Origin: Bdellovibrionota bacterium
GTDB taxonomy: Bacteria; Bdellovibrionota; Bdellovibrionia; Bdellovibrionales; Bdellovibrionaceae
Direction: 5' to 3'
Length of the DNA: 64,000 nucleotides
Assembly: GCA_963170155.1 (NCBI GenBank)
Contig: CAUJGP010000012.1
Coordinates: 1 to 64,000, forward strand
Positions 30,569 through 52,643 of this stretch are shown piece by piece (within the stretch, counting starts at the first letter, position 1; each line of letters starts with the position of its first letter). The notes under the pieces are model-generated. The model was not told where the DNA came from and searched no databases. It saw nothing but the letters and a program-made list of their open reading frames with translations. The position numbers were made by a program, and so were the translations under genes.

Positions 30569-31231
30569 GTGATAAAACTCTCGCATATTTACAAAACATA
30601 TCATGGCCCCACTCATGCCCTTCGAAATATCAATTTTGAAATTGAAAAGGGAGAATTTGTTTTTTTAACAGGACCCAGCGGAGCAGGAAAAACAACACTA
30701 TTTAAAATGATCTCCGCCTACGATAAGCCTACCTCTGGAAAAGTAACCGTAGGGGATTTTTCGGTAGAGCAACTTCGCCTCTCTGAAATTCCTTTTTATA
30801 GAAGAAAAGTTGGAGTGGTCTTTCAAGATTTCAAATTACTCAAAAATAAAACCCTTTTTGAAAACGTAGCGCTTCCCCTGATCATTCGAGGAGACACCAC
30901 TGATTTTATTAAAACCAAAGTTATGGACACACTGGAACTCCTGGGCATTCAGCACAAACACAATCAGTATCCAGAGTTTATCTCCGGAGGGGAGCAACAA
31001 AGAGTTGCCATTGCCCGTGCCATTATTCACCAACCATTTATTCTTATTGCGGATGAACCCACGGGAAATTTAGATCCCACTCTTGCTCAAGAAATCATGC
31101 AAATTCTCGAACAAATCTGTGCCCAAGGGACCACTGTTTTTGTCGCTACTCACGATACATTCTTGATCGATAAGTATAAAAAAAGAAGAATTGAGATCCA
31201 TAAAGGCGAGATTTTGGAGACGTCACCATGA
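30569..31231 (+). CDS. ftsE: Cell-division ATPase FtsE
   Basis: A 220-residue ABC ATPase: Walker A GPSGAGKT (35-42), Q-loop VVFQDFKLL, ABC signature SGGEQQRVAIARAI, Walker B ILIADEPTGNLDP, and H-loop VATHDT. The KNKTLFENVALPL stretch after the Q-loop is FtsE-like. With FtsX it forms the inner-membrane complex that controls septal wall hydrolases. The start is GTG 30569. It overlaps ftsX by 4 bases (ATGA) and heads a tight run ftsE-ftsX-envC-ctpA. Confidence 0.95.
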   Translation: MIKLSHIYKTYHGPTHALRNINFEIEKGEFVFLTGPSGAGKTTLFKMISAYDKPTSGKVTVGDFSVEQLRLSEIPFYRRKVGVVFQDFKLLKNKTLFENVALPLIIRGDTTDFIKTKVMDTLELLGIQHKHNQYPEFISGGEQQRVAIARAIIHQPFILIADEPTGNLDPTLAQEIMQILEQICAQGTTVFVATHDTFLIDKYKKRRIEIHKGEILETSP

Positions 31232-32124
31232 AGCGTCCCATCTTAGTCACCAGCTCTTTTTTGATCATCAGCACGATTTATACTTTTTCACTTTTTTCAT
31301 GGGTTTCGTTACAAGCACTCTCTCATCTTCTCCAGCGTTGGAGTCATGAGTCTGAAATGACGGTTTATCTCAGGCCTGAAGTTAAAAACTCCGAAATCAA
31401 CCAACTGAAGCAGCAACTTTCCCCTTATCTCAATCAAATTAAGTTGCAATTTCAATCTCCAGACGAAATTCGAAATCACATCCAAAAAATCATGCCTCAA
31501 AGTGAATTCGATTTTTCTCAAAATGATGAACTGGCATCCATCATCCCTCCCCATATCATCATCACGACCACGACCTCTTCACTTTTTGGATCTTCCTTAT
31601 TCAGTTTATTTGAGGATATCAAAACAAAAATAAACAACCTCCCTTACGTTGAATCAGCAAGTTACGGAAAATCTTGGTTGGATAAATACTCTTTAGCGTT
31701 GGGTTCTTTTAAAAAAGGAGCGCTAGGCTTTCTCGCGATTTTATCCTTAACAGTTGTCCTCGCCATCGGAAATACCATTCGCTCTTACATCAACTCTTGC
31801 CGCGATGAAATTGAAATTTTGGAATTGGTAGGAGCCACTCCCCGCATGATCCGCAAACCTTTTTTGTTAAAAGGAGCGCTTCTCTCTGCAAGCGCCATGT
31901 TTTTTGCTTTAACGTTGGTTTCAATCACCATCTTCTTTTTTAAAACAAACGTCTCAAGCTTTCTGCCCTTTCTTTCTTTAGAAAGCGGGCTTTACCAACT
32001 CTCTTTTCCTGAATGGATCAGTGGCCTTTTCGGAGCTGTTCTCGTCGGTCTTCTCGGCAGTTATTTCTGCCTCATCGAAATTAATACGGGATGGGCAGCC
32101 TCAGAATCAGGTCAACATGAATAA
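31228..32124 (+). CDS. ftsX: Cell-division membrane protein FtsX
   Basis: A 298-residue protein with FtsX topology: TM1 about 6-30 (SSFLIISTIYTFSLFSWV), a periplasmic domain of about 130 residues, then three TM helices (GFLAILSLTVVLAIGNTI; GALLSASAMFFALTLVSI; ISGLFGAVLVGLLGSYFC). The cytoplasmic loop has RDEIEILELVGATPRMIRKPF, the site that contacts FtsE. The periplasmic loop would bind the EnvC-type activator encoded next. It overlaps that gene by 8 bases. Confidence 0.93.
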   Translation: MKRPILVTSSFLIISTIYTFSLFSWVSLQALSHLLQRWSHESEMTVYLRPEVKNSEINQLKQQLSPYLNQIKLQFQSPDEIRNHIQKIMPQSEFDFSQNDELASIIPPHIIITTTTSSLFGSSLFSLFEDIKTKINNLPYVESASYGKSWLDKYSLALGSFKKGALGFLAILSLTVVLAIGNTIRSYINSCRDEIEILELVGATPRMIRKPFLLKGALLSASAMFFALTLVSITIFFFKTNVSSFLPFLSLESGLYQLSFPEWISGLFGAVLVGLLGSYFCLIEINTGWAASESGQHE

Positions 32125-33220
32125 AATTTTTTTCTTCTCATGGACCTTGCTTGTTCACCTCTACACGATGAACCTCCAGGCCGCCTCTCCTTCCAATGCT
32201 CGTTTAATCAACGAATGGAAAAAGTCAGACAATCAATTATATAAAATCTCACTAAAAGAAACAAAATTAACCAACCAAAAATTACAACTTGAACTTGCCT
32301 TGGACCAAACCAGTGAAAATATAAAACAACTCACAGAATTTATCAGCGAAAAAAGAGATCTTATTCTTCGCAGGATTCGCTACTTGAACCAAGGATCAGG
32401 TTCGGATTTTTTAAAAAATTTAATAGAATCTTCCAATCCTGGCGAGCTTGATCGAAACATGAAATTATATTCAGCGGCCACGCAGTCTGATTTAGGGCTC
32501 ATTCAACAATACAACAAAGACATCTCCAAACTGAAATCCGAGCAAAGAAATTACGCTCATAGAATCTCTAAATTAAAAATATTAAAATATGACCTTCAAA
32601 AGCAAGCTGAAATACATAAGCAAGAGCTCAAAAGAAAAAATGAAATTCTCTCTCAAATAAAATCTCGTATGAAGCTCAATTCCACTCTTTGGAAAAAGGA
32701 GTTGCAACTCGCTATCAAAAATAAAAACAACAGTAAAATTCATCTTTATCAATCTCTACTCAATAAAAACTGGCTCGATCGCAAGGGGCAACTCACAGCT
32801 CCAAGCCACCACTCTATAAAATATGGATTTGGCGCGATCAAATTTTCTCCTACATCTCCCACTCTTCCATTCCATGGTATTCTCTTTGATAGTCCTGCTG
32901 GGGCCCCGGTTCGAGCGATTGCAGATGGTTCCATCGTCTGGCTTGGGCATATTGATGGTCTTGGTGACACCGTTATTCTAGACCATGGCCGAGATCTTCA
33001 CTCTCTTTATGCAAGAGTTACGTTGGCAAAACTCCATCTTGGAGACATGATTGAAGAAGGAACTATTTTTGGCAGAGTTGCAACAGCACCTCAATTTATA
33101 AGTAATGGATTGTATTTTGAGTTGCGGGAACATGGGCATCCCACGAACCCTCTGCGATGGATTTTATCTAAACCCGAGTTTTTGCAAAAAGACTCTTCTC
33201 CATTGGAGTATATACAATGA
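32117..33220 (+). CDS. envC: EnvC-type activator with degenerate LytM domain
   Basis: About 367 residues. ATG 32117 overlaps the ftsX stop by 8 bases and is followed by a signal peptide (FFSWTLLVHLYTMNLQAAS); the frame opens earlier inside ftsX, which is not the start. Residues about 30-220 are long coiled coil, as in EnvC. The LytM domain (about 260-355) keeps the fold (PAGAPVRAIADGSIVWLG, GDTVILDHGRDLHSLYARV, LYFELREHG) but the zinc-binding positions of active M23 enzymes are F, L, R and G/Y instead of H, D, H, H. It therefore activates other wall hydrolases (amidases) under FtsEX control rather than cutting itself. It overlaps ctpA by 4 bases. Confidence 0.9.
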   Translation: MNKIFFFSWTLLVHLYTMNLQAASPSNARLINEWKKSDNQLYKISLKETKLTNQKLQLELALDQTSENIKQLTEFISEKRDLILRRIRYLNQGSGSDFLKNLIESSNPGELDRNMKLYSAATQSDLGLIQQYNKDISKLKSEQRNYAHRISKLKILKYDLQKQAEIHKQELKRKNEILSQIKSRMKLNSTLWKKELQLAIKNKNNSKIHLYQSLLNKNWLDRKGQLTAPSHHSIKYGFGAIKFSPTSPTLPFHGILFDSPAGAPVRAIADGSIVWLGHIDGLGDTVILDHGRDLHSLYARVTLAKLHLGDMIEEGTIFGRVATAPQFISNGLYFELREHGHPTNPLRWILSKPEFLQKDSSPLEYIQ

Positions 33221-34584
33221 AAGTAGCTTCATTCATCACTATCGTATTCACAACATCTCTGCTTTTTCTTTCTCTTCGTTCGCCCATAGCGGCTTTTGCT
33301 GAAGATCGCTATTCAGAGCTGCAGTCTTTTACAAAAATCCTTAATCTCGCCCAACAATTTTATGTGGAACCCGTCGACACAAAAAAACTAATCTACGGCG
33401 CGGTCAAAGGAATGTTACGGGAACTTGACCCACACACGAACTACATGCCTGTTGAAATTTTTAAAGAATTTGAGTCTGAAACCACAGGTGAATTTGGCGG
33501 ACTTGGTATCGAAATTTCTATCCAAAACAACATTCTAACTATCATCTCGCCCATCGAAGATGCTCCCGCATGGGTTGCTGGCATCAAAGCCGGTGATAAA
33601 ATCATCTCCATCAATGGACAAAGCACCAAAGGACTCAGTTTAGTTGAAGCTTCTCAGCTCATGAGAGGCAAACGAGGTTCCTCTGTTGTTCTTGGCATTA
33701 TCAGAGGCACAAGCGACTCTCCTCAAAACTACACAATCAAAAGAGGCCAAGTCAAACTCAAGTCTGTTAAGTACACTAATCTCGAGGATGGCTACGCTTA
33801 CGTCCGCATCACGAGCTTCATAGAAAACACCTCTCGTGATCTTGAAAAAATTCTTGATGATCATGTTAAAAAGAATAAGGACATCAAAGGACTTTTAATC
33901 GACTTAAGAAGAAACCCCGGTGGCCTCTTTCAACAAGCCATCAAAATCAGTGACCTGTTTCTGGATGAAGGGACCATTGTTTCCACCATCGGTCGAAATA
34001 AAAAAGATCAAGAAATCGTTGTTGCAAAAAAAGATGGGGGATATCCCACGCTCCCTCTTGTTGTATTAATCAATGAGTTCTCGGCCAGTGCCAGTGAAAT
34101 TCTAGCGGGAGCCCTTCAAGATAACCGCCGTGCCATTGTCGTCGGTGAAAAAAGTTTTGGTAAAGGTTCCGTACAATCCGTGATCAAACTCGGCGATGGT
34201 TCGGGATTAAAATTAACGGTGGCTCGCTACTACACTCCAAATGGCCGCTCCATTCAAGCCGAAGGAATCACTCCCGATGTTGAAATTAAAAATATTGATA
34301 TTCAAGCTCTCAACAAAGCGATCATCACAAGCGAAAATATCCGAGAAAAAGACATGGAAGGGCATCTCATCGGCGAGAATGAAAAACCCGCCTCTCCACT
34401 CACTGCCTCGGATAAAAATGGAAAAGAAACACGGTCTCCAAGCGCTTCTTCTTCTTGGTGGAACAAATCTTCGAAAAAAACAGAGGATTCTCTTTCTCCC
34501 AAAGACAAACTTTTACAATCTGATTATCAAGTCTACCAAGCCTTTAACTACCTTAAAACTTGGAAAATTTTCTCCAAAAAGTAA
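33217..34584 (+). CDS. ctpA: C-terminal processing protease, S41 family
   Basis: A 455-residue exported serine protease. Signal peptide 1-28 (LLFLSLRSPIAAFA), a helical bundle with LDPHTNYMP, a PDZ domain about 95-175 (GLGIEISIQN, AGDKIISINGQS), and the S41 catalytic core with DLRRNPGG, S291 (SASASEILAGAL) and K316 (SFGKGSVQ): the Ser-Lys dyad spacing of 25 is canonical. The tail after residue 380 is Ser/Lys/Glu-rich. In the same operon as ftsEX-envC it may control turnover of wall-hydrolase factors in the periplasm. A weak terminator (34578-34604) follows. Confidence 0.94.
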   Translation: MKVASFITIVFTTSLLFLSLRSPIAAFAEDRYSELQSFTKILNLAQQFYVEPVDTKKLIYGAVKGMLRELDPHTNYMPVEIFKEFESETTGEFGGLGIEISIQNNILTIISPIEDAPAWVAGIKAGDKIISINGQSTKGLSLVEASQLMRGKRGSSVVLGIIRGTSDSPQNYTIKRGQVKLKSVKYTNLEDGYAYVRITSFIENTSRDLEKILDDHVKKNKDIKGLLIDLRRNPGGLFQQAIKISDLFLDEGTIVSTIGRNKKDQEIVVAKKDGGYPTLPLVVLINEFSASASEILAGALQDNRRAIVVGEKSFGKGSVQSVIKLGDGSGLKLTVARYYTPNGRSIQAEGITPDVEIKNIDIQALNKAIITSENIREKDMEGHLIGENEKPASPLTASDKNGKETRSPSASSSWWNKSSKKTEDSLSPKDKLLQSDYQVYQAFNYLKTWKIFSKK

Positions 34585-39863: not shown

Positions 39864-40307
39864 ATGACTCAAGAAAACCCACCTGCTCCTCTCGTTTTTC
39901 AATCTAAAATCAAACTTCGATTTAGAAATGCCGACCCCGCTGGAGTGATGTTTTTTGGACAAATTCTCGGTCTTGCTCATGACGTCTTTGAAGACTTTAT
40001 TAAAGCTAATGGTATTCTTTGGGAAGATTGGTTTCAAAATCAGGATTTAGTTTGCCCCATTCGACATACAGAGGTGGATTATCAAGCGCCTTTAAAACCG
40101 GGTCATGACTACTTGGTGGAAGCCAAAGTAGTAAAAATAAGCCAAAGCACATTTAATATGCACTATGAATTCAAAGATCACCTAAACAAGCTTTGCGCTC
40201 GGGTTCAAATGGTTCATGTATTTGTGGATCCAAAGACCAAACAAAAAGCACAGTTTCCTGAAAAATACCTGAAAACCTTTGCCAGGTACTGCCTTCCCTC
40301 TCTTTGA
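39864..40307 (+). CDS. Hotdog-fold acyl-CoA thioesterase, MenI/YbgC-like
   Basis: A 147-residue hotdog protein: KLRFRNADPAGVMFFGQIL, GLAHDVFEDFI and the RHTEVDYQAPLKPGHDY strand fit the 4HBT/YbgC and 1,4-dihydroxy-2-naphthoyl-CoA hydrolase group (D in NADPAG is the catalytic candidate). Hydrolysis of acyl-CoA thioesters is the known family reaction; the substrate is unproven. It diverges from the polyprenyl synthase and UbiA-type genes, which makes a menaquinone role attractive (inference). A terminator hairpin (40329-40359) follows. Confidence 0.8.
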   Translation: MTQENPPAPLVFQSKIKLRFRNADPAGVMFFGQILGLAHDVFEDFIKANGILWEDWFQNQDLVCPIRHTEVDYQAPLKPGHDYLVEAKVVKISQSTFNMHYEFKDHLNKLCARVQMVHVFVDPKTKQKAQFPEKYLKTFARYCLPSL

Positions 40308-40422: not shown

Positions 40423-41013
40423 TTACTGCTGTGGCATATCAGGCTGCTGAAGAACAGCGAAATTAATTTCACCGGCTCCGGCCTCTGTTAAAGTAAACAA
40501 AATCTTTTTAATAGTGAGGAAATCGATCTCTTTATGAGCCTGCACCGTGATTTTCTTCCAAGGTTCTAAATTTTCAAGCTCCGCCATCTCTTCCGGCTTC
40601 AACGCAGCTCTGACTTCTTTCATAACAGGAGACGTCTCCGCCTTTAATTTTGCTTTTTCAATGGCTTTTTGAGCCTCAACAAATAAAGGTTGTACCATCC
40701 AATCCTTCTGATTCTTCACTTCTTCGAAATTAGCAATAGGAAAATCATCTAATAAAATCCCTGAAGATGAAATAGTGACAATAATGGATGGTTTCAATTC
40801 TTTGATCACTTCAGCCCGTGGCAAAAGAAGATCTTTAGGAATATTAACAATCAACCCTTCCGTATTATAATTCTGCAATAAAAAGATCACGAGCACAGTG
40901 AACATATCCACCATGGCTGTCAAAGAAAGAAGAGCTGTCACTTCTCGTTTACCTTTTTGTTTGCTTAACAAACGATGGTTTCTAAACTTTTTTCCCGGAA
41001 CATGAATAGGCAT
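40423..41013 (-). CDS. Second TolR/ExbD-type stator protein (AglS/AglQ-like)
   Basis: A 196-residue inner-membrane protein with one TM containing D36 (LTAMVDMFTVLVIFLLQ), the proton-carrying Asp of TolR/ExbD/MotB-like stators, and a long periplasmic part with a Lys/Glu-rich helical insertion (about 100-150) that ordinary ExbD lacks. AGGAGG is just upstream and its ATG overlaps the stop of the first TolR gene by 1 base (TGATG). In M. xanthus, AglQ and AglS act with AglR as the gliding motor. It is the last gene of the operon, so its output may limit stator numbers (inference). Confidence 0.85.
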   Translation of the reverse strand: MPIHVPGKKFRNHRLLSKQKGKREVTALLSLTAMVDMFTVLVIFLLQNYNTEGLIVNIPKDLLLPRAEVIKELKPSIIVTISSSGILLDDFPIANFEEVKNQKDWMVQPLFVEAQKAIEKAKLKAETSPVMKEVRAALKPEEMAELENLEPWKKITVQAHKEIDFLTIKKILFTLTEAGAGEINFAVLQQPDMPQQ

Positions 41014-41483
41014 CAGATACCTCCTGATGCAACGCTGATTTTAGGAAACCCTGATTTTAAGACAGCATCCATTCCTGTAATCAAATGGTCAAAGGCAAGT
41101 GAATCGTCCATTGCGACCATGGCATCTATTTTTTCTGGAAACAGGGTTTTCGCTTTTTTCAACATTTCCACTAAGGTGGGAGTGTCAAAGATCTCGCCTT
41201 GACGAGCAATCAGATGAGACTCACGGCCAATAGTTACGAAATACCCATCTTGACGAATATCCACTCGAACAATCTTATCCATATCAGGAGTTAAAGGCGT
41301 TGTTTTATCTCCCGATTTTTTAGAGTACAAGGAACTTCCAATCTGAATCATGGAGACTTGAGTCCAGACAGCTGTGATCAACAAGAAAGTGATCAAAACA
41401 CTCATTAAATCAATAACTGGAACCAGATTTAATTCAACGCTGCTCGCTCGCCTTCCTGATCCTCCGCTTTGTATGTGGGCCAT
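41013..41483 (-). CDS. First TolR/ExbD-type stator protein (AglQ/AglS-like)
   Basis: A 156-residue inner-membrane protein. D25 in the TM (NLVPVIDLMSVLITFLLI) is the stator Asp. The periplasmic part has a TolR/ExbD fold (VRVDIRQDGYFVTIG, PTLVEMLKKAKTLF, FDHLITGMDAVLKSG). The N-terminal HIQSGGSGRR is cytoplasmic. It is followed, with overlapping stop and start, by a second TolR, the same doubling as AglQ/AglS. A 163-base gap with an inverted repeat separates it from the TolQ gene at 41647. Confidence 0.88.
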   Translation of the reverse strand: MAHIQSGGSGRRASSVELNLVPVIDLMSVLITFLLITAVWTQVSMIQIGSSLYSKKSGDKTTPLTPDMDKIVRVDIRQDGYFVTIGRESHLIARQGEIFDTPTLVEMLKKAKTLFPEKIDAMVAMDDSLAFDHLITGMDAVLKSGFPKISVASGGI

Positions 41484-41592
41484 AAAAACCTCACTATCCC
41501 TTTCTCAGTCTTACAATCGCGCCCTTGTTTTGTTTGTTATATGAAACAAATTCAGGCGCTATTTTTAAATTCGTTTCATTGCTCGTTATCTT

Positions 41593-41630
41593 AGAGTCAA
41601 AATCCACAAAGATAGCTTTCAATTGACTCT
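41593..41630 (-). promoter_or_regulatory. Inverted repeat between TolQ and TolR genes
   Basis: AGAGTCAA (41593-41600) pairs with TTGACTCT (41623-41630) across 22 bases, in the only sizeable gap inside the operon. It may set the TolQ:TolR ratio as an attenuator or processing site. Confidence 0.35.
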
Positions 41631-41646
41631 GAGAGTTTCTACTTTT

Positions 41647-42303
41647 TTAATCTCTGATTTTTTCTCTATTTGCAGCAACAAGATTCAACATTTGCATAGA
41701 GCTTTCCATTAATTCATTTTCAGATCTTTGAATCTGCATTTGGTAATAGGCATAAGCAATGATACAAATGATGGAAACAATAAGTCCAAAAGCCGTACAA
41801 TTCAACGCGTGTGAAATACCGTTAGAAAGCTCTGCAGCTTTTGTGGCATTATCCGCATTCGCCACAGCTCCGAAAGACCGAATCATACCTGCGATGGTAC
41901 CTAAAAGACCCGCTAAAACGGCTACGTTACCAAACACCGCGAGAAAAGGAGTCCAACCTTCAAGCTTAGGAGTTTCTCTCAAAACAGCAGCATCCATAGC
42001 GACTTGCACTTCTTCATCAGGTCGTTTATTCAAAACGGCAACCAAGCCAGCCTTGATTGTATTAGTCATTGGTGCAGGACGAGCATCACAAAAAGCCAGT
42101 GCTTGTTTCAAATCACCTTTTAAAATCATACCGAAAATATTTTCATTGAATTCTCGGCGATTGATTCGAGCAGCACTCAAAGCCAACCATCGCTCAACAA
42201 TGAGCATGATAGAGAGAATGCCGATCAGAGCAATCACATACATGACGGGTCCGCCGTCATTAAAAGCCTTTTGGATAAAAGGTAAATTATCTACTTGGTT
42301 CAC
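41647..42303 (-). CDS. TolQ/ExbB/MotA-type proton-channel subunit (AglR-like)
   Basis: A 218-residue inner-membrane protein with three TM segments (VMYVIALIGILSIMLIVERW; a central pair FLAVFGNVAVLAGLLGTIAGM; and LIVSIICIIAYAYYQMQI) and a large cytoplasmic loop, the TolQ/ExbB architecture. TM2-3 hold AVLAGLLGTIAGMIRSF and the T in ALNCTAFGLIVSII, normal for proton channels. GTG start 42303, with AAGGAGG. It would partner with the two TolR-type proteins encoded downstream to make a stator, as AglR with AglQ and AglS in M. xanthus. Sits directly after the FHA/TonB-like gene. Confidence 0.9.
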   Translation of the reverse strand: MNQVDNLPFIQKAFNDGGPVMYVIALIGILSIMLIVERWLALSAARINRREFNENIFGMILKGDLKQALAFCDARPAPMTNTIKAGLVAVLNKRPDEEVQVAMDAAVLRETPKLEGWTPFLAVFGNVAVLAGLLGTIAGMIRSFGAVANADNATKAAELSNGISHALNCTAFGLIVSIICIIAYAYYQMQIQRSENELMESSMQMLNLVAANREKIRD

Positions 42304-42329
42304 AAAAACCTCCTTAAATTAACTCTAAA

Positions 42330-44528
42330 CTATTCTTCATTTTGGAAACTAAATGGGAAAAGCACTTCGGCCACACTATTTGCCGGTGGCTCCGGAAAAA
42401 GCCAAGTTGCTAACTCATTAGTTAAACACGTTTCAACGCCTTTGTTATTAATAGATGATTCATTCACCTCTGCCGAGAGAACTTTCCCTTTTTCTCCGAT
42501 GACAAACTTCACAACGAGTCTTCCACTCAATGTTGTTTTAAATCTCAATTCTTTTTCATAACAACGGCGTATCACAGGCTTATGTGTTTGAATCACACGG
42601 AGAACCGCATTGCGATCGATGGTTCCTGCAAATGTAGCCCCATAGCCTCCAACATCCACCATCACTCCTGACTTGTCTCCCAATCCGCTGCCGACGCCAC
42701 CATAACCAGAGTTTCCACTGCCACGACCATTGGTGATACCACCACTGATTCCCTCGATAGCAACACCTTTACCGCCAGCACCCGTATCTTTAAAAGCGGA
42801 ACCTAAATCATCACCAGGGCGTCCTTTAGAAAAACCAACGGCACCCGTTGCCTGATTGGCGTCTCCAATGATTCCTCCAGCCCCTTGAACGGCTTGTCTT
42901 AATTTACTATTCACGCCACCACCACCAAAGGTGCTGGTAAGTCCTACGTTACTTAAATCCACGGGTTTTTTAGTTTGGCTCGCATTAGCACCCGCTTGAG
43001 CTCCCAGCTTCACCGCACCACCTTGTTGAACCGAGGTGAATGTCTTTTTCGCTGAAGTATTTTTATTAGGGGCCGCCTCAGCAGCCCGACTACCAGCCGC
43101 TCCACCCGACGTGACCGCTTTACCGGGCTTTTGAACCGGCTTTTCCGATTTGGTTGTAGCGACTTGATTTTTATCACCTAACACTAATTTTTGCTTTTCT
43201 TTAGGCGGTGTTTCCACTTTCACAGGAGGAGGAGTTTGAGGCGGTGGCACGCTTCTCTCAGGTGCTGGTTTTACCGTAGGATAAACAAATTTTGTTACAG
43301 AAATAATTTCTGGCTCAATCTCTTCTTTAGGAACTTCAATCGGAGCATGAATAATATTGTATAAAGCAATCAAACCAACCAACGCTGTTGCCAAAAGAAC
43401 ACTCGCGATTTCTCCGGTTGTAAATGGCAAGAAGGGTACAAGTGTTGGCTTTTGCGTTGATGGAACATAGCGGATATAAACATTGATTAAATCTGGAACA
43501 AGAGCCAATCGAAAAGCTTCGCCTTGCTCTAAACGAATGATATTTTGTCCGCGAGGCCCCGTCGTAATTCGTTTAATTTCTCTGAGGTCTTCATAACTAT
43601 AACTTTTTTTCTCTAAAATCAAATCACCCGTCATGGAAGAAGAAATATTGACGGTGGCAACGCCACCTTGAAAATCGGCCAAAGTAAAGGTGCCCGGAAA
43701 TACTTTTCCAGGGATCAAGATATCCGTTTTTTCACCGGAACCAATGGTGATGGCTTTGTTTCCTTTAAAATGATAAGTTTCAATAATACGCTCTTTCCAA
43801 GCAATAGAAACTTCCAATACGGAACCACGACTTGCCTTCACCACCTGATTCAATTCCGAAACAGCACTGGGAGGAGCAAAGGTTTTTGATAAATCAGGAC
43901 GGGAAACCGTCGGTGGGGCCGGAGGCTCAACAGGCAGAGCCTCTGCTGTCATCTGAGGTTTATTGACACTCATCCCATTTTCAAGATTGGGCCGTAATCC
44001 TACTTCTGCATGTTGTTGTGGTTCGCTGGCATAAGCTGTCTGAGGCGAAGAAGGGGATGGCGGAGCCACTGTTGCTGCCGACACCATTTCTGTCGTACTG
44101 ACGGTCGCAGAGGACAACCCTGAACCCGCTGGAGATTGATTCATGGAAACACTCTGCTCCGGATAGGCTGGAGGCGTTGGAAGAGCCGTTGCTAAAACGA
44201 CGGCATCGGGTGCTACCACTCGGGGTTTTGGAGCTCCCACATAAAACTGAAGCCTAAAGCTTCCAATCTTTAATTCATCCCCGGACTCCAACACATCATC
44301 TAAGATTTGATTGGGACCTTTATAAGTGCCATGGGCAGATCCGAGATCACAAATATAATAAGTTTCGTTTCGTTTTTCAATAAGCGCATGGATGGGTGAA
44401 ACGGATGGGTCATTGAGATTCAAGTTAACTTCCGCCTGATTACCAATAACGATTTGATCAAGCTGAAATTGCTTTACTTCAACAAGATGATCTCCCTTAA
44501 AAATTCTGAGTATTATTGGTAAATTCAA
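42330..44528 (-). CDS. FHA - TM - TonB-like gliding protein (GltG-like)
   Basis: A 732-residue trans-membrane protein. Cytoplasmic part: FHA phosphothreonine-binding domain about 15-95 (DPSVSPIHALIEKR, CDLGSAHGTYKG), a Pro/Ala-rich linker, and a second beta-rich domain about 225-360. One TM near 385-405 (ASVLLATALVGLIALYNII). Periplasmic part: Pro-rich strip (VPPPQTPPPVKVETPP), a long Gly-rich region, and a C-terminal TonB/AgmX-like domain with VIRRCYEKELRFKTTLSG and WLFPEP. This is the GltG layout of M. xanthus: it couples stator movement and regulation to the periplasmic scaffold. Overlaps the small gene upstream by 4 bases. Confidence 0.88.
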   Translation of the reverse strand: MNLPIILRIFKGDHLVEVKQFQLDQIVIGNQAEVNLNLNDPSVSPIHALIEKRNETYYICDLGSAHGTYKGPNQILDDVLESGDELKIGSFRLQFYVGAPKPRVVAPDAVVLATALPTPPAYPEQSVSMNQSPAGSGLSSATVSTTEMVSAATVAPPSPSSPQTAYASEPQQHAEVGLRPNLENGMSVNKPQMTAEALPVEPPAPPTVSRPDLSKTFAPPSAVSELNQVVKASRGSVLEVSIAWKERIIETYHFKGNKAITIGSGEKTDILIPGKVFPGTFTLADFQGGVATVNISSSMTGDLILEKKSYSYEDLREIKRITTGPRGQNIIRLEQGEAFRLALVPDLINVYIRYVPSTQKPTLVPFLPFTTGEIASVLLATALVGLIALYNIIHAPIEVPKEEIEPEIISVTKFVYPTVKPAPERSVPPPQTPPPVKVETPPKEKQKLVLGDKNQVATTKSEKPVQKPGKAVTSGGAAGSRAAEAAPNKNTSAKKTFTSVQQGGAVKLGAQAGANASQTKKPVDLSNVGLTSTFGGGGVNSKLRQAVQGAGGIIGDANQATGAVGFSKGRPGDDLGSAFKDTGAGGKGVAIEGISGGITNGRGSGNSGYGGVGSGLGDKSGVMVDVGGYGATFAGTIDRNAVLRVIQTHKPVIRRCYEKELRFKTTLSGRLVVKFVIGEKGKVLSAEVNESSINNKGVETCLTNELATWLFPEPPANSVAEVLFPFSFQNEE

Positions 44529-44812
44529 TCACTTCTCCCAGAGCCCCTTAACCGTTCCCCTGTCTCCACCATTTCTGGTAAGAAGTTTTCTCTCAAACGA
44601 ATTAATTTTTTGAAGTTAAAATTCTTTCTTTGCAGAAGATACATAAGCTCTGGCTTTTGCACTCCACCTTCAATCAATTCGTCTTCGAAACTCAGGGTAT
44701 GTTTTTTAACGGACTCCTCATTTGTTTTATTTTGCGCTTTTACAAATTCAGGAAAAACGCACATAAAAGTAATTAGCAAAATTGATACCGTTTTAAAACA
44801 TAAATTAATCAT
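44525..44812 (-). CDS. Small secreted protein of the gliding-type operon
   Basis: A 95-residue exported protein: signal peptide about 1-25 (VSILLITFMCVFPEFVKAQ) and a short mature part with FEDELIEGGVQKPELMYLL, NFKKLIRLRENFLPEM and a charged end. The E-G-G-x-x-(K/R)-P-E...I-x-L-R-x-N-F pattern looks like a conserved motif of delta-proteobacterial TonB/TolQR operons (recalled, not checked). No domain name is certain. Wedged between a TPR lipoprotein and the FHA/TonB protein, with a 4-base overlap to the latter, so it probably works in the same periplasmic complex. Confidence 0.78.
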   Translation of the reverse strand: MINLCFKTVSILLITFMCVFPEFVKAQNKTNEESVKKHTLSFEDELIEGGVQKPELMYLLQRKNFNFKKLIRLRENFLPEMVETGERLRGSGRSD

Positions 44813-44842
44813 AAATATCCTTTATTTAATTTACTGCTTATT

Positions 44843-45715
44843 TTATTCAGAACTCTTGCCGCTAATTGTCTCTTCCATCCTCACGAGGGCTTGTTTTTTC
44901 TTTGGCGGCACTCCCATAAATCTTATTTTGTCTATTAGCGCACTTGCCCCTTTAAAATCTTTCTTAACGTAAGTGAGATAAAGTGCATAATTAAATGACA
45001 CTACGGCATCAGATGACCCAATTTGGAGCGCTTCCTTGAAAATACTATCAGCTCGAGAGTTTCCATCTTCCATCAAAGAAACCGCAAAATTGTTCAACAC
45101 TGGTAAATCCTTAATACCTCCCTTATAGGCGGCCTCCAGAAAATTCCGAGCCTTGCCGTAGTCCTTTCCGACAGCAAAAACAGAACCAAGATTCGCATTC
45201 GCAGCGGGGTAATTCGGATTTAAAGAAAGAGCCTTTCGAAAAGACTCTATTGCCAAACGATTTTCTCCGCTTTGAGAATACATCACGCCCATATTATTGT
45301 GAGCGACCGGATTTTTTGGGTCCTTATCCAAGATATTCTTAAATATCATACGGGCCAATGCCTCTCTCCCTTTTGAAAAGTGATAAAGAGCTAAGGAGTT
45401 CAGGGCCTTTGAGTCACCGGGATCCTGAGAAAGAAGGTTAGCCACTGTTTTCTCTACTGCCTCATCGTCTCCGCTACCGATTGTGATTTGCAAACTGTCG
45501 TAGAGATCTTTCTTTTTAGGAAGTCCTTCCTCCGGATCGCTACTCGCACTCTTACTTTGGCTACCTCCCGCAGAGCTTTTACCCGTCGCTACACTTGAAG
45601 ATTTGGATTCACCTGCGGAATCAGAGCCTTCCTCTCCTGATTTCACACCAGAGGTCGAGCAAGCTGTGAGTAAGTAAGCCGTAAAAAGACATAAAAATAA
45701 ATTTCGCTTTCTCAT
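44843..45715 (-). CDS. TPR lipoprotein (GltE/AglT-like)
   Basis: About 290 residues from ATG 45715; it overlaps the upstream stop by 4 bases (ATGA). Lipobox LLTAC with lipidated C19, then a Ser/Gly/Lys spacer (about 25-60), then six or so TPR helices: NSLALYHFSKGREALARMIF, NNMGVMYSQSGENRLAIESF, NANLGSVFAVGKDYGKARNF, NNFAVSLMEDGNSRADSIF. It is probably anchored in the outer membrane, facing the periplasm, as GltE. TPRs bind partner proteins, here plausibly the larger TPR protein encoded upstream. Confidence 0.85.
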   Translation of the reverse strand: MRKRNLFLCLFTAYLLTACSTSGVKSGEEGSDSAGESKSSSVATGKSSAGGSQSKSASSDPEEGLPKKKDLYDSLQITIGSGDDEAVEKTVANLLSQDPGDSKALNSLALYHFSKGREALARMIFKNILDKDPKNPVAHNNMGVMYSQSGENRLAIESFRKALSLNPNYPAANANLGSVFAVGKDYGKARNFLEAAYKGGIKDLPVLNNFAVSLMEDGNSRADSIFKEALQIGSSDAVVSFNYALYLTYVKKDFKGASALIDKIRFMGVPPKKKQALVRMEETISGKSSE

Positions 45716-48700
45716 TTTAACCCCATCCAATCCTGGTACGTTTTAGCAAAGGCTTCTGATCCTAAATCCAATTTAGCATTTGGATCCAAAACTCTAAGTC
45801 CTTCCATGGCATTGAAATAAGAATTATTATAAGTTTCCAATTCTTTACCTTTAGCAACGGTTCCGCGAAAACTTTCAATTGCTTTCGCCAAAAATGGTTT
45901 TGCCATCTCTGCAACGGCCGCCGTGTATTGGTTTCTTGCCGCCTCATCATTAGCCACCTCTGGAGGTAAAGGAGCTGAGAGTAGAGCTTCATTCATGTGA
46001 GCATTTGTTCTGCCTAATAACTCAAGGGCTCCCACAATTTCTTCAGCGCTGTCATATTTAATAACTTCCGCTAACTCTTGATTTAATTTATTGATGAGTG
46101 CGAGCTTATCATCGGCTACTTTTTTTAATCGAGCTGAATTCGCTGGAAACTTCAATGAAACGAGTTGTTGATACACTTGTTCTGTGTTTTGTAAGCGAAT
46201 TTGAGCGGCATACTGAGCTCCTGGTCCTCTCAACCTCGGAACAAGATTTTTTTGCACAGAAACCACCTTCGATCGCCAATCATTCCACTCTCGGCGATTC
46301 CGGATTTTACCGTAGCAATCCATAATTTTATAATGGGATTCAACGATAAGCTCTGGGTCTCGCCCCAATCTCAAATACTCTTTGAAGTGATCAATTGCTT
46401 TATAATATTGCTGATTCCGATAGGTCAGGTTAGCCATCCTATAAAAGACCGCGGCCTTTTCTGTGTTATTGGCTTTCTTCAAATACAAGCCATAGTACTT
46501 ATTGGCTCGCTCCACCGAGTTTAAAGCATCATATAAAATAGCCGCATTGTAAAAAAATCCCATTGCATCTTTATCATTAGGATTTTTTTCACCAACGACA
46601 GCATAGGCCCCAGCCGCCTTCTGAAACATCCCCAAGTTTTGATACATACTGGGTAAAAGCTTATAGGCTTTTTCTTGTAAAGGAATGGCCGCTTTATCTT
46701 TGCTTTTTAAAACCATTTCAAAGGCATTAATAGAGGGCCAAAGACGATTGGCTCTTTGGTAATTCACTCCCGAATTGAACTGTGCCTTCAATAAAAAAGT
46801 AGAACGAGGGTATTTTTTTGTGAAATCCTCAAATCTTTTCGCGCTTCCCAAATAATCCTTCTTAGATTCCAAGTCTTCGCCAGCTTTAAAACTCGCACGC
46901 TCTAAAATATTTCGAATTTGATTGGCTGATGAACTTTCAGAAACTCCACTTTGAGTGAGTAGCTCGTTCCCCACTCTTTCAAGACCTACGAAATCTTTTT
47001 TCAAATTATACATATCCAACAAAAGATTAGCAGCGTATTCGGCTTGTTTGGATTTAGGGCTACTTTGAATCACTTCCTTGAAAACTCGCTCCGCTTCCGT
47101 AAAATGATTGGAAAGATAATAGAGCCGTCCAATTTTAAAGCGAAGTTCGACGTTCTTGTCTCCCTTCTGAAAGTTTTTAAGGTACCACTCCCCATTTTCA
47201 ATGAATTGCTTCACTCGGGGATCGAGAGGCAAAGGTTCTGTCGATTGCCCCACTCGCGCTTGCATTTGCTCTTCTGTCGGCAAATTCTTTTCCAAACCTA
47301 GAATCATGTTCATCCCGGCCTTGGGTCCATATTTACTTTGTGGAGCGTTCTTTGCCACCCAAGCATATTGCTGAGCCGCTTCTCCAAATTTTTCCATATC
47401 ATAAAGCAATTCACCGTAAAAAAACATCATGTCCGGATATTGAGCGGCATCTTGGAATTCTGATAAATAAAGTTTATAGCCTTCTGCGGCCTGCTCCTGA
47501 GAAAATTTTCCTCTCGAATTTTGAGCAGATTGATGTTGTTGGAGCGTGTAGGTTCGCAAAAAATTCTCTGTGGTTTTATTGCTGGTTTCAACGACTGTTT
47601 TATTGGATTTATTTTCTTTATACCACTCGGACTTCGGCCCATAATTTTTGATGAATGAATACATTTCTTCTTTGAATCTTTGATTTTTAGAATCATTTAA
47701 ATAATTTTTCACGATCTGAAATTGGTATTCATAGGCTTTCGGAGACATTTTACTTCTGGCAATCAACTTTTTAAATAAAATAGCCGCTTTTTCCCGCTCT
47801 CCTTTATCACTATAATAATACGCAAGTTTTTCCACTTCCCGAGGGGCACGCTCTTCACCCAAATGCTTTGCAAAGTAAGGGAAGGCTTTTTCAACATCAC
47901 CTCCATCCGCAAAAAAGATCACCAAATCCCGTCGTGCCTCAATATCTAACTTAGCAACGTTGACTTTCTTAGAAGAATCTCCGCTCATCCTTATGAGCAC
48001 CTCTAGAAACTTCATTCCTTCCGCCGACTGTCCTTTACGGTGTAAACACCAAGCCGCTTTATAAAGAGCAATCCCAAAGGTGCTCGCATTCTGGTTCTTG
48101 ATCACTTTTTTATAAGACTCGAGGGCCAGATCCCACTTTTCTTCATCAAAATAATATTCACCGATGGAAAAATGAGCCTCTCCCACATAAGGACTTCGCG
48201 GATATTCAGTGGTGAGACGCGAGTAGTAACCGGCCCCTTTTTTGAACTCTCCCAGCTCAATATAATTAAACCCTAAAAAATAAAGGGCCTGATCCATTTT
48301 AGGGTGGTTGCGAAAATCTCTCACAAAGTATTCATAAAGTTGAATAGCTTTTTTATTGTAAGACATGGACTCGGAAAGATCGATATCTGGCTTTAAAGCT
48401 GTTTTCTTCTCATGAAACGCTTTTAGTTTTTCTTCATACTCATTTTGTTTACGACTTTTAATATAATCCGACTTTTCAACATAAAGCTCAGCTAATCTTA
48501 GCCACAATTCCCCCCGGTTGGGGCTGCCTTTCATTTTCTCTGTTAATCGATACAGCTCTTGAATTTGCCTTTCCGTAATGCGCTCGAGCTCCACACGGTC
48601 TTTCCCTACTTTTTCTACATTGATCTCTTCACGAGAAAGTGTCGGCCGGATGGATTGAAAATCAATGCGATCTCGCTTAGGTTCTTGAAAGAGATTTGCC

Positions 48701-48885
48701 GTTGGGACAGCGAAGTTTTGCTTCGACATCACTGTTTGCCCTTGCGACGCTCCCGATTTCCGCAATTTTTTCAACATGTCTCCAATGGTCTCTTCTGAAT
48801 AAACATTCACAGACGCACTGAAGACTCCCAGAGCCACAATGAGTATAAACGACAATTTAGTTTGCACAGCTTTGTTTTCCGACAT
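45712..48885 (-). CDS. Large exported TPR protein (GltD/AgmU-like)
   Basis: A 1057-residue protein: signal peptide (KLSFILIVALGVFSASV), a Lys/Arg-rich stretch, and then many TPR or Sel1-type repeats through most of the chain (YFLGFNYIELGEFKKGAGYY, AHFSIGEYYFDEEKWDLALE, FRMANLTYRNQQYYKAIDHF). Length and content match GltD/AgmU of M. xanthus, the periplasmic scaffold of gliding complexes. ATG 48885 lies 29 bases inside the upstream gene with AGGA before it; GTG 48867 is an alternative. Its stop overlaps the TPR lipoprotein gene by 4 bases. Confidence 0.85.
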   Translation of the reverse strand: MSENKAVQTKLSFILIVALGVFSASVNVYSEETIGDMLKKLRKSGASQGQTVMSKQNFAVPTANLFQEPKRDRIDFQSIRPTLSREEINVEKVGKDRVELERITERQIQELYRLTEKMKGSPNRGELWLRLAELYVEKSDYIKSRKQNEYEEKLKAFHEKKTALKPDIDLSESMSYNKKAIQLYEYFVRDFRNHPKMDQALYFLGFNYIELGEFKKGAGYYSRLTTEYPRSPYVGEAHFSIGEYYFDEEKWDLALESYKKVIKNQNASTFGIALYKAAWCLHRKGQSAEGMKFLEVLIRMSGDSSKKVNVAKLDIEARRDLVIFFADGGDVEKAFPYFAKHLGEERAPREVEKLAYYYSDKGEREKAAILFKKLIARSKMSPKAYEYQFQIVKNYLNDSKNQRFKEEMYSFIKNYGPKSEWYKENKSNKTVVETSNKTTENFLRTYTLQQHQSAQNSRGKFSQEQAAEGYKLYLSEFQDAAQYPDMMFFYGELLYDMEKFGEAAQQYAWVAKNAPQSKYGPKAGMNMILGLEKNLPTEEQMQARVGQSTEPLPLDPRVKQFIENGEWYLKNFQKGDKNVELRFKIGRLYYLSNHFTEAERVFKEVIQSSPKSKQAEYAANLLLDMYNLKKDFVGLERVGNELLTQSGVSESSSANQIRNILERASFKAGEDLESKKDYLGSAKRFEDFTKKYPRSTFLLKAQFNSGVNYQRANRLWPSINAFEMVLKSKDKAAIPLQEKAYKLLPSMYQNLGMFQKAAGAYAVVGEKNPNDKDAMGFFYNAAILYDALNSVERANKYYGLYLKKANNTEKAAVFYRMANLTYRNQQYYKAIDHFKEYLRLGRDPELIVESHYKIMDCYGKIRNRREWNDWRSKVVSVQKNLVPRLRGPGAQYAAQIRLQNTEQVYQQLVSLKFPANSARLKKVADDKLALINKLNQELAEVIKYDSAEEIVGALELLGRTNAHMNEALLSAPLPPEVANDEAARNQYTAAVAEMAKPFLAKAIESFRGTVAKGKELETYNNSYFNAMEGLRVLDPNAKLDLGSEAFAKTYQDWMGLK

Positions 48886-50434
48886 AAAAGTAGTTTCCTA
48901 TTTCATCAAGCCAAAATTCCCCTTGAAAGGGCCAATAATCATATCCATTTTTCACGTAATAACTACGATCAGAATCATCGTCGATTTTTGGAGACTCTAC
49001 AGGCTGCCCTGCGATTTTCTTCTTGAGCGCATCCTTTTGTAAGCCAATCATTTCGTACCTTAGGTAAGAAACCTGCTCATCAAGGTCCTTCAGCTCTCCT
49101 CTCATGTAAATCATGTGAATCTTAGCTTTGATTCCCACCAACTTTTGGGCGGTCTTGATTCGACCAATCAATAGCTTCACCGTGTATCGCCCTAAAGGAG
49201 ATTCCAAAAAACCAACAGACATTTTCTCTAGTTGTTGTCTCTCAATAAAGAGTTTACGAAGATAATCCAATCCTCGTTCGATATCGGGCTTTCCAATAAT
49301 ATTTCTTATCACTCGGTAGGGGATTCGCCCTTCCGCTGGTTTACCCCCGCTTTGAATCATCTTTTTCATTAAAAGACCATGTTCAACCTCATCGTAATAA
49401 GCTTTAGGGTCGTTGGTCGAACGCAAGAAATTAGTCAAACGCGTTTGAACATCGCCATAGGATCTTTCAAAGAGCCCCACAACCTTGTTCACTTCATCAT
49501 ATTTACAAATGTACAAGTACACAATGGCTCTTAAGACTAATGATTCAGGAACATAAAAATCATCATAGTAACTTGAATGAAGAGAGTGAAAAGTGCCTAA
49601 TGCAGATCGAAAACGGGCGCTCCGTAAATTAGCCCATGCCGATTCAAAGAGAGCATTATGCCAAAGAGTGTGATCCCTCGGAACTCTGCGATAGTACTCT
49701 AAGCTTCGTCTCCAATCTTTTCTTTGGTAATGCGCACGAGCCAGAGCCATGAGAGTTGAAACTCTTGTGCTGTCTGTGATCGCTCTTTTTTTATTGGCGA
49801 GCAGGGCTTCAAACTTACTAATGGCGGCTCCAGTATCATTGAGCATCGCAAAGCTAGAACCAGACATATATTGAGCCATCTCTGAATAAGAGCTATCGGA
49901 GGTCACGCGATCAAAAGCTTCAATTGCACCTTTGTAATCTTTATTACGGAACTTAATCTCTCCCATTCGAAAAAAGAGCATGTCTTTCTCTTGAGCAGGA
50001 AACTCAGAGACCTTCATCTTAGAAACGGCGTAATTCAAAATGGTTTCATCACCGAGCTTATCCGCCGCAATCGATAAATACTCCAAAGCTTTTTTATTGT
50101 AATTTTGGTCATTAACCATAATGACATTAGCGAACTGCCAAGCAGCAATTTGGGGAAAATTCAGATCTAAAAAGATTTTTCCCAAAGTGAGGTAAATCAG
50201 CCCTCGATAAGGCCTCAGTTCTGGTCTGGTACGAATAGAAAAAAGAGCCGAAGCGGCTGGCAAAAGTTGTTTTTTTTCATATAAACTCAGAGCATTCCGC
50301 AACCGTTGATCTCGAACACCATACTCATTTTGCGCTTGCGCCTTAGAGACGCCAATGAAGGTTATGATCAAAATCACAAGACTGAAATAGCGCACACTTT
50401 CACTCAATAATCCTAAAACTCTTATTTTTTTCAT
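48857..50434 (-). CDS. Exported TPR protein (GltC-like)
   Basis: A 525-residue exported protein: signal peptide about 15-33 (FSLVILIITFIGVSKAQAQ), then tandem helical repeats (ALSLYEKKQLLPAASALF, FRMGEIKFRNKDYKGAIEAF, SLEYYRRVPRDHTLWHNALF). The last 120 residues are helical and charged, not repeat-like. By position (after the two barrels) and TPR content it resembles GltC, which joins the barrels to the scaffold. It overlaps the upstream barrel gene by 4 bases (ATGA) and the downstream scaffold gene by 29. Confidence 0.8.
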   Translation of the reverse strand: MKKIRVLGLLSESVRYFSLVILIITFIGVSKAQAQNEYGVRDQRLRNALSLYEKKQLLPAASALFSIRTRPELRPYRGLIYLTLGKIFLDLNFPQIAAWQFANVIMVNDQNYNKKALEYLSIAADKLGDETILNYAVSKMKVSEFPAQEKDMLFFRMGEIKFRNKDYKGAIEAFDRVTSDSSYSEMAQYMSGSSFAMLNDTGAAISKFEALLANKKRAITDSTRVSTLMALARAHYQRKDWRRSLEYYRRVPRDHTLWHNALFESAWANLRSARFRSALGTFHSLHSSYYDDFYVPESLVLRAIVYLYICKYDEVNKVVGLFERSYGDVQTRLTNFLRSTNDPKAYYDEVEHGLLMKKMIQSGGKPAEGRIPYRVIRNIIGKPDIERGLDYLRKLFIERQQLEKMSVGFLESPLGRYTVKLLIGRIKTAQKLVGIKAKIHMIYMRGELKDLDEQVSYLRYEMIGLQKDALKKKIAGQPVESPKIDDDSDRSYYVKNGYDYWPFQGEFWLDEIGNYFYVGKQSCAN

Positions 50435-51306
50435 CGATAACTTGCTCCTGGAAATAAAAGAGTTAAACCAATCCCCAGATATAAATCACCCAGCGATTGC
50501 TTTTTTCCGGAATCCACTAAACTACCATCATCTTTGACATCTGGAATTCGAGCCGTGTAACTAACGTAACTCAAATCCCATCGCCAAGCGAAAGACTTGG
50601 TGATTGAAAAAATCTCGCCCGTTCCTAAATGAATACTGGGAGCTGTCTTATCCAAATAAGATGTTTCAGTGGTACCTCCCCCTATCGAAAAATAAAAATC
50701 GTAGGGAATGATAACCTTATCTAAAAAAGTCATCTTACCGTAGAAGGGGATATAGATAAGAGAAGCTCCTAAGTAGCTTAAACTGCTCAACATGGTTTTG
50801 GTGGTAATTCTGTATTTGGATTGTAGATCCGCGGTGATGGTTCTAGGAGAGACCGAGTGACTCCACATACCGATTTCAACACCAAGGGATTCCGTGAAGA
50901 AAAAAGAAAATCGCCCATTGAAACCATAGCTGTCAAAAAAAGGGTTATTGGTTAAAAAATCCACTCCACCATAAATTTGAAAGCGGTTCGTTTTCGGCAT
51001 AAACCTTTTTTGTATCACTGTCACATCAGAAAAAGCCGAGAGCTTCGGTAGGTCCTGAAAAGTGAGCTGCTTAGCATCCTCCCTTAAACTTCTATCTTGA
51101 GCTGAAGGTTGTGAGCTCTCCGCTTGCTCTTCTCCTCGACGGCTCATCTCTCTCTCAATCGCATCTAGATCAAAATCATCATTTGCCAAAGCAAATCGAT
51201 CCCCAAAAAGAATCAAGATCAAGCTTAACGCGTAAAAGAAAATCCCTTTCACTTTCAAGCCCGTACTCTTCCATTGCTTACTTTTTCGTTTCAATCCCTG
51301 AAACAT
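50431..51306 (-). CDS. Outer-membrane barrel, gliding-type operon (GltA/GltB-like), second
   Basis: A 291-residue exported protein. A hydrophobic signal follows a basic N-terminus (IFFYALSLILILFGDRFALA), then a charged stretch (EREMSRRGEEQAESS) and a 200-residue barrel with strand pairs (RFQIYGGVDFLTNNPFF, GVEIGMWSHSV, YDFYFSIGGGTTETSYL, WRWDLSYVSYTAR, DLYLGIGLTLLF). The ending LFPGASYR is barrel-like. AAGGGG precedes the ATG. It overlaps the GltC-like gene by 4 bases. It would form an outer-membrane pore or anchor with the neighbouring barrel. Confidence 0.78.
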   Translation of the reverse strand: MFQGLKRKSKQWKSTGLKVKGIFFYALSLILILFGDRFALANDDFDLDAIEREMSRRGEEQAESSQPSAQDRSLREDAKQLTFQDLPKLSAFSDVTVIQKRFMPKTNRFQIYGGVDFLTNNPFFDSYGFNGRFSFFFTESLGVEIGMWSHSVSPRTITADLQSKYRITTKTMLSSLSYLGASLIYIPFYGKMTFLDKVIIPYDFYFSIGGGTTETSYLDKTAPSIHLGTGEIFSITKSFAWRWDLSYVSYTARIPDVKDDGSLVDSGKKQSLGDLYLGIGLTLLFPGASYR

Positions 51307-51378
51307 ATTTTTCCCCTTAACAACTTTAAGAGTTCTTGCTTCGCCTCAATTCGTATTAATGACGAAAGCTCCCTCAAT

Positions 51379-52125
51379 TTAGAATAAAAAAACCAACCCT
51401 CCCGTGAGATGCGTTAGCATGTAGGTTGTGGATTCAAAGTCTCGGATTTTTAAAACACCATTACGAAGATCGTCTTTACTCTGATTTTGAGAGCGTCCTG
51501 AAGGACGATAAATAGGGTTCGGTCCGGAATACCTAACAAATTTCAAATCAAAGCGAAGTGCGAAGTTTTTAGAAAGGTAAAATCGTTGACCTAACCCAAA
51601 ATCAAAAGCTAATGCTGTTAGGCCATCGTACATCACAGACCCAACGCCTGCGAGCCCATAAATGTGAGTATTGACCACTAAGTTTTTGAGGATGCTTAGT
51701 TTTCCATAAAAAGCAGTTAATTGATAACTCACTAAAGCCACACTCTTGGGCCCAAAGGTCTTGGATAAATCCAAATTGACCTCGCTATTGAGGGTTTTCG
51801 CGTAATCCCCGACTCCCGTTCCCATCAAGCCATAACTCAAGTTCACCCCGTGAACCTCATTGATGTGATACGTACCCAAAAAACCCATTTGATCTTGGCT
51901 GTGCACAGCTTCATCGGTGACCTTTCCCAAAAACCCACCCAACTCGAATCTTCCTTCAACCACAACGTTTCTATTTCGAACACTGTTAGGAACATCAAAT
52001 TTAGGTAAAACACTTTCTCGTGCCAATTCCTCTTCTGGAAAAGCCATTTTTTCGGCTCGAAGGGATGTTGTCATCCCAACCACACTCATGAAACATATCA
52101 GAGGCCATCCATAGATTTTTCGCAT
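51379..52125 (-). CDS. Outer-membrane barrel, gliding-type operon (GltA/GltB-like), first
   Basis: About 248 residues. ATG 52125 shares its A with the kdsC stop (TGATG), with AGGTG 5 bases upstream; GTG 52128 is an alternative. Signal peptide (CFMSVVGMTTSLRA), then barrel strands (VEGRFELGGFLGKV, GVNLSYGLMGTG, LVSYQLTAFYGKL, FALRFDLKFVRYS) ending in LTGGLVFLF, an outer-membrane barrel terminus. The two barrels are similar in plan (LRWDL/ALRFDLKFVRYS). It is the first motility-type gene of the operon, translationally coupled to kdsC. Confidence 0.78.
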   Translation of the reverse strand: MRKIYGWPLICFMSVVGMTTSLRAEKMAFPEEELARESVLPKFDVPNSVRNRNVVVEGRFELGGFLGKVTDEAVHSQDQMGFLGTYHINEVHGVNLSYGLMGTGVGDYAKTLNSEVNLDLSKTFGPKSVALVSYQLTAFYGKLSILKNLVVNTHIYGLAGVGSVMYDGLTALAFDFGLGQRFYLSKNFALRFDLKFVRYSGPNPIYRPSGRSQNQSKDDLRNGVLKIRDFESTTYMLTHLTGGLVFLF

Positions 52126-52643
52126 CACTGCACCTCACTCCTCGTCTCTTGACTCAAATAACCATACTTGATGATTTGATCACAAATTTCTCGAGCGGCA
52201 CCCAAGCCACCGGATTGGGTTGTTACATAATCAACAATGGCTTTAACCTCTTTCACAGCCTCTGGAACCGTGGCCGAAAACCCAACACTCTGCAAAAGCG
52301 GTACATCATAAATATCGTCTCCAACATAAGCCATTTCATGTGTTGAAATCTGGGATTGTTCTTGAAGTTTTCGAAAGGCCGGAATCTTATCTAAAAATCC
52401 CTCATAAAAATAATGGATTCCAAGGGTTTTGACTCTTTCTCGAATATCTTTTGATTGCGATCCTGTAATCACAGCTGTTTTATAACCCCGTTTATGAAGT
52501 TCTTTAATTCCCACGCCATCACGAATTGAAAAAAATCGCTTCCATTCACCATCAGAATCTAAAAAAATCCGCGTGTCTGTTAACACGCCGTCAACATCCA
52601 GAATCAGTAATTTGATTTTTTTTAATTTTTCAATGTGATCCAT
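52125..52643 (-). CDS. kdsC: KDO-8-phosphate phosphatase, KdsC type
   Basis: A 172-residue HAD phosphatase: nucleophile motif LILDVDGVLTDT, then FSIRDGVGIKELHKRGYK, TGSQSKDIRERV and the AYVGDDIYDVPLLQSVG loop; GGLGAAREICD near the end is the KdsC C-terminal signature. KdsC makes KDO for the LPS core. It is the first gene of the operon and ends with TGATG shared with the first barrel gene, an unusual link between LPS synthesis and motility-type genes. Its own upstream partner (kdsA/kdsD) is not in the window. Confidence 0.92.
   Translation of the reverse strand: MDHIEKLKKIKLLILDVDGVLTDTRIFLDSDGEWKRFFSIRDGVGIKELHKRGYKTAVITGSQSKDIRERVKTLGIHYFYEGFLDKIPAFRKLQEQSQISTHEMAYVGDDIYDVPLLQSVGFSATVPEAVKEVKAIVDYVTTQSGGLGAAREICDQIIKYGYLSQETRSEVQ

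Follow-up and report, generated by a model that had tools for sequence, protein, structure and literature searches.

The 64,000-nucleotide stretch of DNA analysed here (the window) comprises positions 1 to 64,000 of contig CAUJGP010000012.1 from a Bdellovibrionota bacterium of the family Bdellovibrionaceae (assembly GCA_963170155.1). On its minus strand lies an operon, led by kdsC, that is very probably the orthologue of the Bd0828-Bd0838 cluster of Bdellovibrio bacteriovorus and the order's core trans-envelope motor of the Glt/Agl type. This high confidence covers the identity of the operon; as for its function, gliding seems likelier than surface transport for prey contact. Lambert et al. 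(2010) described four tonB-like/agl operons, Bd0828-0838 among them (PMC2797640). Luciano et al. (2011) reported that the Agl proteins of Bd0828-0838 are the closest to M. xanthus (Myxococcus xanthus) aglRQS and that the cluster carries most glt homologues, with gltH, I, J, and K missing; they proposed it as the foremost candidate for the gliding apparatus of Bdellovibrio (PMC3169522). Since the cluster was published in 2010-2011, the window operon is a further sequence of a known system and not a new machine, and the novelty that the first-pass annotation of the window implied for a single compact operon is not upheld. The operon runs from 52643 down to 40423 as follows (aa, amino acids).

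52125..52643, minus strand: kdsC, 3-deoxy-D-manno-octulosonate (Kdo)-8-phosphate phosphatase, 172 aa (TIGR01670, 155.7 bits, cut-off 106.95)
51379..52128, minus strand: outer-membrane beta-barrel at the GltB position, 249 aa, GTG start (TIGR04565, 84.3 bits, cut-off 60)
50431..51306, minus strand: outer-membrane beta-barrel at the GltA position, 291 aa (TIGR04565, 84.8 bits, cut-off 60)
48857..50434, minus strand: GltC homologue, exported TPR protein, 525 aa (NF033756, E 1.7e-51)
45712..48885, minus strand: GltD homologue, large exported TPR protein, 1057 aa (TPR repeats; position between GltC and GltE)
44843..45715, minus strand: GltE homologue, TPR lipoprotein, 290 aa from the ATG (NF033758, E 2.3e-8; lipobox LLTAC)
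44525..44812, minus strand: GltF/CglF, small exported protein, 95 aa (NF033764 CglF, E 6.1e-11)
42330..44528, minus strand: GltG homologue, 732 aa, TTG start (NF033760 GltG, E 8.3e-67)
41647..42303, minus strand: AglR-type TolQ/MotA-like stator, 218 aa, GTG start (PF01618, E 2.4e-26)
41013..41483, minus strand: AglQ-position TolR/ExbD-like stator with D25, 156 aa (PF02472, E 9.3e-14)
40423..41013, minus strand: AglS-position TolR/ExbD-like stator with D36, 196 aa, last gene, counterpart of Bd0838 (PF02472, E 2.1e-7)

All 11 genes are co-directional, in the order kdsC, two outer-membrane barrels, GltC, GltD, GltE, GltF, GltG, TolQ, TolR, and TolR. The first-pass annotation had given this order, the strand, and the coordinates correctly, and it had also recognised kdsC, the two barrels, the two large exported TPR proteins, the TPR lipoprotein, the small exported protein, the protein combining FHA, transmembrane, and TonB-like parts, and the TolQ and two TolR proteins. 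It counted ten genes, whereas its own list contains 11. The overlaps of 1 to 29 bases that it saw at most junctions are present at six of the ten (4, 4, 29, 4, 4, and 1 bases), while the other four have gaps (72, 30, 26, and 163 bases); from kdsC in the 5′ to 3′ direction, the junctions read -4, +72, -4, -29, -4, +30, -4, +26, +163, and -1 bases. The GltE gene has an alternative TTG start at 45730 that is also open. A promoter-like site (10/12) lies ahead of kdsC at 52680-52653 with no evidence of function, and promoter and terminator scans of the operon gave results near chance level.

In G036, a 3,782,950-bp Bdellovibrio chromosome that I take to be that of B. bacteriovorus HD100, all 11 genes were found at 776-789 kb in identical order and strand. 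The window proteins are 68% (TolQ), 63% (KdsC), 54% and 52% (the two TolR), and 47% (GltC) identical to the G036 copies, and GltD is 45% identical over 97%. Four Agl-type motors are present in G036, at 398, 787, 1403, and 2282 kb. These positions fit the published Bd0411-21, Bd0828-38, Bd1473-83, and Bd2368-77 clusters, and thus the 787-kb locus would be Bd0828-Bd0838. Bd0828 to Bd0838 make eleven gene numbers, and Bd0838 is AglS in print (PMC6561027), which fits the eleventh gene. In the TolQ tree, the window copy groups with the G036 787-kb copy and the copy of another relative, G002 (100/99), apart from the three paralogous Agl-type motors of its own genome. Of these paralogues, the motor on contig C23 groups with Bd0411-21/Bd2368-77, that on C6 groups with Bd1473-83, and that on C3 has no clear partner. 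By this tree, the stator of the operon is orthologous to that of the Bd0828-Bd0838 locus and not to the paralogues. The two loci are alike in their 11 genes, order, and strand and are the nearest in the tree, although the window operon has diverged in sequence.

The arrangement is widespread. The same 11-gene order is found in the locus L056 and in 15 further family members, the run ending at contig ends in two of them, and every one of the 60 relatives searched has GltC. A GltC-alignment scan of genome contigs gave a second collection, of 80 loci, with no myxobacterium among their titles. In this collection, the ten-gene glt/agl order is complete by BLAST at 39 of the 52 loci with enough flank, and at most of the remaining loci the one protein under the BLAST threshold is the divergent TPR protein GltE. 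Since the same gene order occurs across families of the order, the arrangement is not due to chance. G002 (2,657,893 bases) has a single Agl-type motor, the orthologue of the window operon.

The Glt proteins were compared with NCBIfam models built on Myxococcus sequences. GltC matches NF033756 with 175.7 bits (equivalog cut-off 450), the next-best model reaching 7e-8. The NF033760 match of GltG spans residues 1-730; this protein has an FHA domain (PF00498), a transmembrane segment, a proline-rich periplasmic part, and an AgmX/PglI TonB-like tail (NF033768, 89.3 bits, cut-off 40). Unrelated TPR and FHA models all fall dozens of orders of magnitude short of the GltC and GltG models, so the better match to an unrelated system that the first-pass annotation had named as speaking against its assignment was not found. 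The Glt/Agl component types that it had recognised are thus borne out by the GltG, GltC, GltF/CglF, and GltE matches. For GltE, the NF033758 match lies amid general TPR matches, some of which score better. Searches against solved structures gave only three kinds of match: FHA proteins, TolQ/ExbB, and TPR proteins, most of the last being designed.

The first-pass annotation had not seen a GltF, but its small secreted protein is GltF/CglF, since the 95-aa protein matches NF033764 and CglF is GltF (PMC4488436). Residues 25-84 align to model positions 25-84 of 88, and 36 homologues share the motif FEDEL..KPEL..NF..LI.LRENFLPEM. Its structure model has low confidence (predicted local distance difference test, pLDDT, 66.7; predicted template modelling score, pTM, 0.24). 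In M. xanthus, the order is likewise gltD-E-F-G, and GltF is an 89-aa protein with a signal peptide (PMC3169522). GltJ is absent from the genome; the main matches of its model cover the last ~95 of 671 positions, a tail shared with GltG. GltH, GltI, GltJ, and GltK are lacking in Bdellovibrio (PMC3169522). Thus, the motor is not full, contrary to the first claim; the suggestion of a reduced machine agrees with these absences, but not in respect of GltF. Both barrels score above the TIGR04565 cut-off for outer-membrane barrels. The AlphaFold2 model of the first, at the GltB position, has 8 strands (pLDDT 84.5) and an OmpA/OmpW fold (VIA Z ~16, root-mean-square deviation 2.5-3.1 over 155-160 residues). 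The second adjoins the GltC gene, the same as gltA in M. xanthus. The names GltA and GltB follow gene order and are therefore putative.

Compared with the M. xanthus Agl/Glt system, the operon has GltC, E, F, and G homologues that were recognised by model; its barrels and GltD correspond in type and order, and the stator triplet is shared as well. Homologues of the Group B core of M. xanthus (GltC, D, E, and G with AglRQS) are present, GltD being identified solely from its TPR content and its place in the operon. The D-E-F-G and barrels-C sub-orders of M. xanthus clusters G1 and G2 are shared with the window. On the other hand, M. xanthus has three clusters where the window has one operon, and it has the GltJ that the window genome lacks; GltH, I, and K, for which no model was used, were not seen here either. 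The first-pass annotation also read the gene order as following the envelope from outside to inside; there is no evidence that such an order has a meaning, and this claim was rejected.

The proton-site aspartates of the two TolR proteins were correctly noted at first and are invariant among homologues: D25, at the AglQ position, in 85/85 and D36, at the AglS position, in 84/84. The stators belong to the TolQR/ExbBD family, and TolQ and ExbB are the solved structures that they match best, as would be expected if the operon were a duplicate of a Tol-Pal or TonB energiser and played no part in motility. This is extremely unlikely. In the TolQ tree, the further TolQ/ExbB-like stators that the same genomes encode form groups apart from a nine-row Agl-type group (96/94), the GltC, GltG, and GltF models match specifically, and genes for TolA, TolB, and Pal are absent from the operon; in family-model searches, none of the 11 operon proteins matched TolB or Pal. 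A Tol-Pal/TonB duplicate was thus rejected, given the GltC and GltG matches and the lack of TolB and Pal in the operon.

In the Glt/Agl motor, TolQ (AglR) and the TolR pair (AglQ and AglS) would form a proton-driven motor in the inner membrane. GltG would be anchored in this membrane, its FHA domain facing the cytoplasm, and its TonB-like region in the periplasm would pick up the motion; the model for this is M. xanthus, in which AglR binds GltG (PMC3169522). The periplasmic GltC and GltD, the lipoprotein GltE, and GltF would relay the force to the two outer-membrane barrels, which may move surface material or adhesins and so bring about slow gliding and prey contact. Of this scheme, the analysis shows the parts, with their gene order, homology, conserved proton sites, the fold of one barrel, and orthology with Bd0828-38; the proton drive, the path of the force, and the direction and purpose of the motion are predicted.

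The kdsC gene was first described as combined with the motor, which is true of the gene order here but not general. It lies directly upstream in 16/16 members of the window's family examined, often with a 4-base overlap, and adjoins the operon at 30 of 64 informative loci overall, the other 34 being without it. Non-adjacent copies are on other contigs in G043, G051, and G046 and ~17 kb away in G058, and kdsC was not found in G042 and G044, which keep the glt operon. The window genome has a single kdsC match, and in it and two relatives this is the only copy above the cut-off. Such constancy within one family and such sole copies may suggest that kdsC is a working part, its co-transcription coupling the supply of Kdo-lipopolysaccharide (Kdo-LPS) to the surface motor. 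I consider this very improbable, as the adjacency is missing at the 34 loci and other families keep the glt operon with kdsC elsewhere or not found. Moreover, kdsA is on another contig of the window genome, and thus the Kdo pathway is not gathered at the operon. On these grounds, kdsC was rejected as a motor part. It is probably a housekeeping LPS gene that supplies Kdo and stands outside the motor, and its distribution fits a gene of this kind having become the first of the operon in certain lineages. The linkage is a minor annotation point.

What the motor moves is a separate question. In M. xanthus, the Nfs spore-coat machine is encoded by nfsA-H, paralogous to gltA-H, in one cluster without GltI, J, and K, and is driven by AglRQS; the window operon resembles it, by published description, as a single cluster without I, J, and K. 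It is possible, though on balance unlikely, that the operon is an Nfs-type Glt-like motor that moves a polysaccharide or adhesin over the surface, for prey attachment, invasion, or envelope building, and not the cell itself. In its favour, a transposon mutant of Bd0838 (aglS) is abolished in prey attachment, killing, and rounding (PMC6561027), the operon is kept where other Agl-type motors have been lost, and the presence of several paralogous motors in one genome points to specialised tasks. On the other side, B. bacteriovorus glides, and the Agl proteins of the cluster are those nearest to aglRQS (PMC3169522). The Nfs likeness comes from published descriptions and not from comparison with Nfs sequences, the window operon, unlike Nfs, carries its own stator genes, and the organism's group is not known for myxospores. 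A related and rather improbable proposal is that the operon is a motor retained order-wide, the sole Agl-type one in the 2.66-Mb relative, which serves prey attachment and entry and not locomotion and is tied to LPS through kdsC in one family.

Several points weigh against the operon being the gliding motor or against its Glt names. A 2026 review describes the Bdellovibrio gliding machinery as still unidentified (PMC13104615). The bd1480 and Bd2368-77 clusters respond to surface or exit phase, and therefore gliding may be driven by a different paralogue. Gliding by the window organism is a prediction. The GltC, GltE, GltF, and GltG models all score below their equivalog cut-offs, and thus the proteins are homologues and not certified Myxococcus equivalents. 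The GltA, GltB, and GltD assignments come from gene order and the literature and not from direct comparison with Myxococcus.

The genome has further Glt/Agl-like clusters or parts at C23:55000-74900, C6:31000-50900, C3:60000-79900, and C37:30000-49900. The C37 cluster has GltC-, barrel-, and GltG-like genes, and no TolQ was found nearby. A small GTPase of 198 aa, which I take to be MglA-like from its sequence likeness, is encoded at C24:250109-250627 (L175), with a RecR-like gene near it on the same strand; MglA is the polarity switch of Myxococcus gliding.

Within the operon, the TolQ-TolR gap (41484-41646, minus strand) is 163 bases long here, whereas in 58 related loci it does not exceed 94. 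The TolQ frame past its stop codon is open there for about 50 codons, up to a double stop, and the gap sequence could be a remnant or an insertion. A YbgC-like thioesterase gene (39864-40307, plus strand; 4HBT_2, 9e-22) is convergent with the operon end; the E. coli tol-pal operon is headed by ybgC. Farther away, at 30569-34584 (plus strand), genes for an ABC ATPase, a membrane protein, an M23 peptidase, and a CtpA-like protein stand in a row with the look of ftsE-ftsX-envC-ctpA, the domain test covering the M23 domain only. At 41-352 (plus strand), there is an open frame of the short repeat PIPGIPNIPPM, low-complexity and proline-rich, which may be the antisense of a glycine-rich gene.

Which of the Bdellovibrio Agl/Glt paralogues drives gliding is still called an open challenge (PMC13104615). 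The order-wide retention of the Bd0828-38 type, and its presence as the sole motor in a small genome, make it a prime candidate for deletion. The window operon is a divergent yet complete member of this type, useful for structure prediction and interface mapping.

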